Part shown: piece by piece, positions 1,776 to 28,779 of the stretch
Position numbering within the stretch: position 1 is the first letter of the stretch
Layout: each line of letters opens with the position of its first letter
Source: Boseongicola sp.
GTDB taxonomy: Bacteria > Pseudomonadota > Alphaproteobacteria > Rhodobacterales > Rhodobacteraceae
Length of the DNA stretch: 34,016 bases
NCBI GenBank assembly: GCA_013042105.1
Contig: JABDQU010000038.1
Span: forward strand, 1-34,016
Direction of reading: 5' to 3'
Program-made: the position numbers and the translations under genes
The notes under the pieces: model-generated
The model's database searches: none
Seen by the model: the letters and a program-made list of their open reading frames with translations, nothing else
Told to the model about the DNA's origin: nothing

Positions 1776-1842
1776 GGATTTGGCTTACGCCTAAGCCGGG
1801 GAACCGGCAAGTGCGCGCGTTGCGTTAACTATAATATGGTCA

Positions 1843-1895
1843 GAACGGGCGCACCGACGTGATACCGACGTGATACCGACGTCGCAAAATCCGCC
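1843..1895 (-). repeat. 53-bp intergenic element, copy 1: three 11-bp iterons (ACGTCGGTATC ACGTCGGTATC ACGTCGGTGCG) read on minus strand
   Basis: Reverse complement GGCGGATTTTGCGACGTCGGTATCACGTCGGTATCACGTCGGTGCGCCCGTTC; 47/53 identical, gap-free, to 28688-28740 on + strand. Confidence 0.9.
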
Positions 1896-28687: not shown

Positions 28688-28740
28688 GGCGAATTTGGCG
28701 ACGTCGGTACAACGTCGGTATTACGTCGGTGCGACCGTTC
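28688..28740 (+). repeat. 53-bp intergenic element, copy 2: three 11-bp iterons ACGTCGGTACA ACGTCGGTATT ACGTCGGTGCG
   Basis: GGCGAATTTGGCGACGTCGGTACAACGTCGGTATTACGTCGGTGCGACCGTTC; begins right after the DUF1489 stop codon. Confidence 0.9.
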
Positions 28741-28779
28741 GCAGCGTTAAGAATTCAGCGATTTTCGCGTGGATTTAAG

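Follow-up and report, generated by a model that had tools for sequence, protein, structure and literature searches.

Few replication-polar motifs have a known reader (KOPS, SRS, Chi, and Ter). The FtsK-orienting polar sequences, or KOPS (GGGNAGGG), and the SRS of SpoIIIE are short, non-palindromic, and distributed chromosome-wide on the leading strand. Architecture imparting sequences (AIMS) are leading-strand-biased octamers, common within clades and most of them without known function (PMC5993296); they are defined by an abundance and a bias that rise towards the terminus, and the criteria set for E. coli require 96 copies or more (PMC5993296). Ter sites of Tus or RTP are few, lie mostly in the terminus half, and are polar protein-binding sites oriented by chromosome arm. 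REP/BIME and REPIN repeats lie between genes in dozens to hundreds of copies per genome, and direct repeats in helical phase are found in iterons and ParR-type plasmid centromeres; parC of plasmid R1, for instance, has 11-bp repeats.

The element considered here, two copies of which lie in the window (the whole stretch of Boseongicola sp. DNA that was analysed, 34,016 nucleotides), is like each of these systems in part. We do not assign it to KOPS, AIMS, or Ter, from which it differs in sequence and in distribution. It is short, non-palindromic, leading-strand, and chromosome-wide, as are KOPS and SRS, but its core, RCGTCGGT, is neither the KOPS sequence nor a close relative of it (in 407 kb, GGGNAGGG occurs 43 times on the leading and 29 times on the lagging strand), and it forms sparse arrays, each with 3-4 units spaced 11 bp apart, that are confined to intergenic sequence and show no clear rise in number toward the terminus in genome G272. 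Leading-strand bias is common to the arrays (46/48 and 39/40 in two genomes) and AIMS, but ACGTCGGT has no such bias outside arrays, no clear rise toward the terminus is seen in the one genome examined, G272, and AIMS were described as octamers, not in arrays. Like Ter, the arrays are predicted to be polar protein-binding sites oriented by chromosome arm; however, they number 50-100, are spread along the whole chromosome (G272 and G412), and are unrelated in sequence. Unlike REP/BIME, they have no palindrome or hairpin, and they have a fixed polarity, an 11-bp unit array, and positions kept between species; REP/BIME are associated with RAYT transposases, and a comparison limited to array neighbors across genera found no recurrent gene. 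Finally, it has direct repeats in helical phase, as iterons do, and the earlier note calls it iteron-like, a misleading label for 50-100 dispersed chromosomal copies. No array copy was found on plasmids, phages, or virus contigs (IMG/VR), and the genes next to the two window copies are priA, MFS, DUF1489, and hisG, with no initiator or par gene adjoining.

The arrays in the window and the source genome

Copy 1 occupies positions 1843-1895 on the minus strand. As the earlier note placed it, it lies between the priA stop, 88 bp upstream, and the called MFS start, 149 bp further on, with both genes also on the minus strand and both identities backed by Pfam. It consists of a 5' flank (1883-1895), a three-core array (1853-1882), and the 3' motif GCGCCCGTTC (1843-1852), and positions 1850-1882 read on the minus strand as ACGTCGGTATC ACGTCGGTATC ACGTCGGT GCG. 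The first two ACGTCGGT cores (1875-1882 and 1864-1871) are each followed by the spacer ATC, and the third (1853-1860) by GCGCCCG, a 3' motif common to nearly all arrays. The exact 11-bp spacing claimed for these cores is borne out, positions 1853-1882 being a tandem repeat of period 11 with 100% matches (Tandem Repeats Finder). A second exact array, again with three ACGTCGGT cores spaced 11 bp apart, lies at 28701-28733 on the plus strand, within a copy 2 that spans 28688-28740 and is made up of a 5' flank, cores at 28701-28708, 28712-28719, and 28723-28730, and the 3' motif GCGACCGTTC (28731-28740); its neighbors, the DUF1489 and hisG genes, are convergent. None of 100 shuffles matched the three-core array at up to three mismatches (0 expected), which upholds the view that it is not chance sequence. 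A GTTAAC box downstream of copy 1 (1824-1829, minus strand), which the earlier note did not describe, is kept in two orthologues, and GTTAAG stands in the corresponding place downstream of copy 2 (28746-28751, plus strand).

GC skew changes sign across the window (1-34016), being about -0.2 at its left end and +0.29 at its right, and the cumulative minimum falls at ~22.7 kb. The two arrays point apart across this switch, as expected if it were a replication origin or the boundary of an inversion; neither a DnaA-box cluster nor a parS site was found at it.

The source genome, 84% complete at 3.06 Mb in 432 contigs, has 95 exact two-core matches, compared to none for the reversed control pattern. 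The element is therefore not confined to two copies, the outcome that the earlier note had taken as telling against it. We analysed 48 arrays, gathered by a pattern search that may have left the set incomplete; 30 of them have four cores, 15 have three, and three have two. The core consensus is RCGTCGGT with a period of 11 bp, or one unit per helical turn, and the spacers are mostly ATN, frequently in the order ATG, ATC, ATT. The 3' end is near-constant, the last core being followed by GCGMCCG, and the 5' end is variable. The conserved flanks proposed earlier both exist, to unequal degrees: the 3' one occurs as GCGMCCG(YK)CG in nearly all source-genome arrays, and the 5' one, GGCGRATTTKGCG, is only weakly conserved among them. 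A GTTAA/TTAAC word lies 10-45 bp downstream of about half of all arrays (26/48, versus 5/192 control windows). All 48 arrays are located between genes called by a codon-usage gene caller, with one starting 1 bp inside a gene end. Arrays on two contigs of the source genome, C51 (L012) and C91 (L024), have unlike 5' parts and the same 3' flank, possibly a sign of strain heterogeneity in the assembly.

Strand polarity and conservation between sites

Strand polarity is also absent from the earlier note. The main comparison genome was that of Boseongicola aestuarii CECT 8489, of the same genus as the source. With the array left out, the array-strand GC skew of the flanks is positive for 46/48 arrays in the source genome and 39/40 in B. 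aestuarii, and the same is true at four-fold degenerate sites (46/48 and 38/40) and where genes mostly oppose the array (16/19 and 17/17), the counts for the two species coming largely from the same sites. Positive skew is also seen for 63/74 arrays of other genera in mixed short loci and, with 20-kb windows, for 23/27 arrays in G272 and 21/23 in G285. On a 3.58-Mb contig of G412, a split into two arcs fits 60/74 arrays among the matches listed, from an uneven array list in which part of the chromosome is under-sampled, and 0/2000 permutations were as good. The G-rich array strand would thus be the leading strand, as assigned from GC skew in what are mostly draft genomes, with an independent origin marker (parS) in G272 alone. 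Base composition fails to explain the polarity: by itself it predicts 80% leading-strand placement, and ACGTCGGT outside arrays occurs five times on the leading and ten times on the lagging strand (266 versus 10 when arrays are included, with the sequence oriented by the arrays). At one site, the source genome (L002) and B. aestuarii (L104) have the flanking gene pair in opposite orientations, yet in both species the array occupies the G-rich strand; ~60 bp could be aligned there, and an opposite-orientation remnant was not seen.

Whole-arm concordance with the parS origin of G272 is 42-44/66 arrays. It is this low because patches of reversed skew carry reversed arrays, a pattern that suggests recent inversions, and wrong-way arrays are therefore tolerated for some time. 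Such reversals were observed on G272:C1 at ~1.71 and ~2.28 Mb (L197 and L200), where the local skew is opposite to that of the arm and the arrays are reversed likewise. Array density in this one genome, in bins from origin to terminus, is 10, 6, 13, 13, 13, and 11, with no clear rise toward the terminus, and the arrays have no regular spacing along it (CV 0.87, inside the random range).

In B. aestuarii, 31 orthologues of source-genome sites carry arrays, and 9/9 further sites located by flanking sequence alone also hold an array, some of them degraded (the L210 row shows that an array is present rather than a checked orthologue, because the flank used for it was not the one paired with it). 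In 11 flank-reached site comparisons, from orthologue sets that are not independent of one another, CGTCGGT is identical at 146/154 positions (95%) and the GCGMCCG motif at 69/77. The ungapped flank from +14 to +39 is identical at 189/284 positions (67%), and the first core base at 10/22. Between orthologous sites, repeat number differs in steps of complete 11-bp units, and the spacers change too; for example, three cores in the window correspond to four in B. aestuarii. G300 has no array at site 1. The better keeping of cores than of flanks at orthologous sites sets the array apart from a neutral repeat.

Distribution and diverged versions

The fixed pattern scores in 17/298 genera of the family and 27/395 genomes of the order, with 0-95 matches within single genera, and a carrier chromosome among marine Rhodobacteraceae has about 50-100 array sites. 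Outside the family, a degenerate pattern is found at background level only. Within it, G322 and G344, which score zero for the fixed pattern, hold a diverged four-unit array, ACGTCGGTATT GCGTCTGTATC GCGACTGTTTT GCGGAGGT, at orthologous sites in 6/8 site-genome comparisons, and with a profile of this version, 200 kb of G322 yielded six intergenic copies (scoring 47-60, compared to at most 16.6 for the reversed control). Another zero-scoring genome, G297, has three intergenic arrays with core RCGTCGGC and positive but weak skew. These were found by a de novo search, for which a reversed-sequence control is uninformative, since reversal preserves repeats, and to which a separate proper control was applied. 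The unit is RCGTCGGT in Boseongicola, GCGACTGT/GCGGAGGT in G322, and RCGTCGGC in G297. The apparent patchiness is at least partly an artefact of the pattern, because G322, G344, and G297 all carry diverged arrays. A patchy element depending on a gained or lost factor was considered and dropped, as the corresponding sites of zero-scoring genomes are occupied by diverged arrays. Some array positions are common to another genus.

Two other repeats were noted in these genomes. In G322, CCCCGGGATATTTTTGGTCAAATGAAG is another intergenic repeat, present several times within the 200 kb (L322, L319, L317, L318, and L321). The recurring GC-rich inverted repeats of G297, CCCCGGTGC...GCACCGGGG (L325 and L327), each with a T run after it, are probably ordinary intrinsic terminators.

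A probable polar binding site and its rivals

Taken together, the comparative data make it probable, if well short of certain, that the element is a functional, replication-polar protein-binding site, specific to the chromosome in Rhodobacteraceae. The phasing that the earlier note proposed has held up, with a constant 11-bp period and cores that are kept while spacers and copy number change. No recurrent neighbor emerged as a candidate gene for the binder, by shared neighbors across genera or among genes between close array pairs, and we infer protein binding because the cores are conserved and in phase on the helix. Molecules of a sequence-specific protein would sit next to one another on the cores, all along the same face of the DNA, and the fixed 3' end and common unit direction would give the bound complex a direction. 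The complex may act on something that travels with or behind the replication fork, for example a DNA translocase or a condensin, or on the fork as such, with the arrays marking the origin-to-terminus direction on each chromosome arm. The most likely use of the element is in chromosome maintenance. If the arrays set the direction of a translocase or condensin, or affected forks in one direction only, the polarity, the dispersal, and the restriction to the chromosome would be accounted for; of these putative roles, we slightly favor one in segregation or in orienting a translocase over one as a polar block to forks. Counted against the polar-site reading are the arm concordance in G272, the lack of a clear terminus rise, the spread of copy number within genera as scored by the fixed pattern, and the empty site in G300.

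The main rival, which we consider unlikely but deserving of weight, is that the arrays are fossil or slowly mobile elements, inserted at forks by a transposase- or reverse-transcriptase-like activity on the single-stranded lagging-strand template and carried as passengers like REP/BIME. Uniform polarity is known for fork-targeted insertion, and such an origin would fit dispersed intergenic repeats that share a 3' flank within a genome, big copy-number differences within genera, and the empty site 1 of G300. However, it explains polarity and dispersal and not core conservation, the cores being far better kept than the flanks. Most of the 48 source-genome arrays are paired with an occupied B. 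aestuarii site, which argues against recent movement there, and some positions are common to another genus. Nor is there a hairpin, a clear RNA or DNA fold signal, or a recurrent neighboring mobile gene: as RNA, the window copies have no stable fold (z-scores -0.68 to +0.48), and when DNA folds are included the best z-score is -1.86 (copy 2 as DNA), with the others between -0.68 and +0.79.

Direct repeats of 11-bp geometry are typical of OmpR/PhoB-type regulators, and some arrays are upstream of genes. It is nonetheless improbable that the arrays are transcription-factor operators, for instance head-to-tail 11-bp sites of such a response regulator with a large regulon. Gene context, from calls made with a simple script, could be assigned to 44 arrays, the rest of the 48 being at contig ends. 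The neighbors are tandem at 24 of these sites, divergent at seven, and convergent at 13, a somewhat higher share of convergent sites than in the background (28/182). At the tandem sites the direction of the array is independent of the genes (13 -E- and 11 +E+), and a regulator has no need of leading-strand polarity. The convergent enrichment might instead point to a transcribed RNA element or a terminator-like structure, but this is more improbable still, given the absence of a stable fold, zero Rfam covariance-model matches in the window, and an orientation unrelated to flanking genes. A neutral tandem repeat expanding and contracting like a minisatellite, as core numbers of two to six that differ between orthologous sites might suggest, is hardly credible for one unit found at tens of unrelated loci, in intergenic sequence only, with a constant 3' end, uniform polarity, and core positions that diverge more slowly than their flanks.

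The polar binding site thus remains our preferred reading. In its most specific form, which we offer tentatively as a serious possibility, the arrays would be a family-wide polar signpost: sparse intergenic arrays of 11-bp units kept on the leading strand. A lineage-specific protein, co-evolving with the unit sequence, would read them and act on a translocase, condensin, or fork by a mechanism unlike those of FtsK-KOPS and Tus-Ter. A search of open PMC papers found no description of the motif or of strand-biased repeats in the family. With ~50-100 delimited sites per genome, few enough to delete or invert, the system is a tractable one, and the differences in unit sequence between genera provide a natural test of the binder's specificity. 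Its study could reveal how direction is encoded in the chromosomes of the Roseobacter group, and whether arrays thinly spread between genes do the work that abundant octamers are credited with elsewhere.
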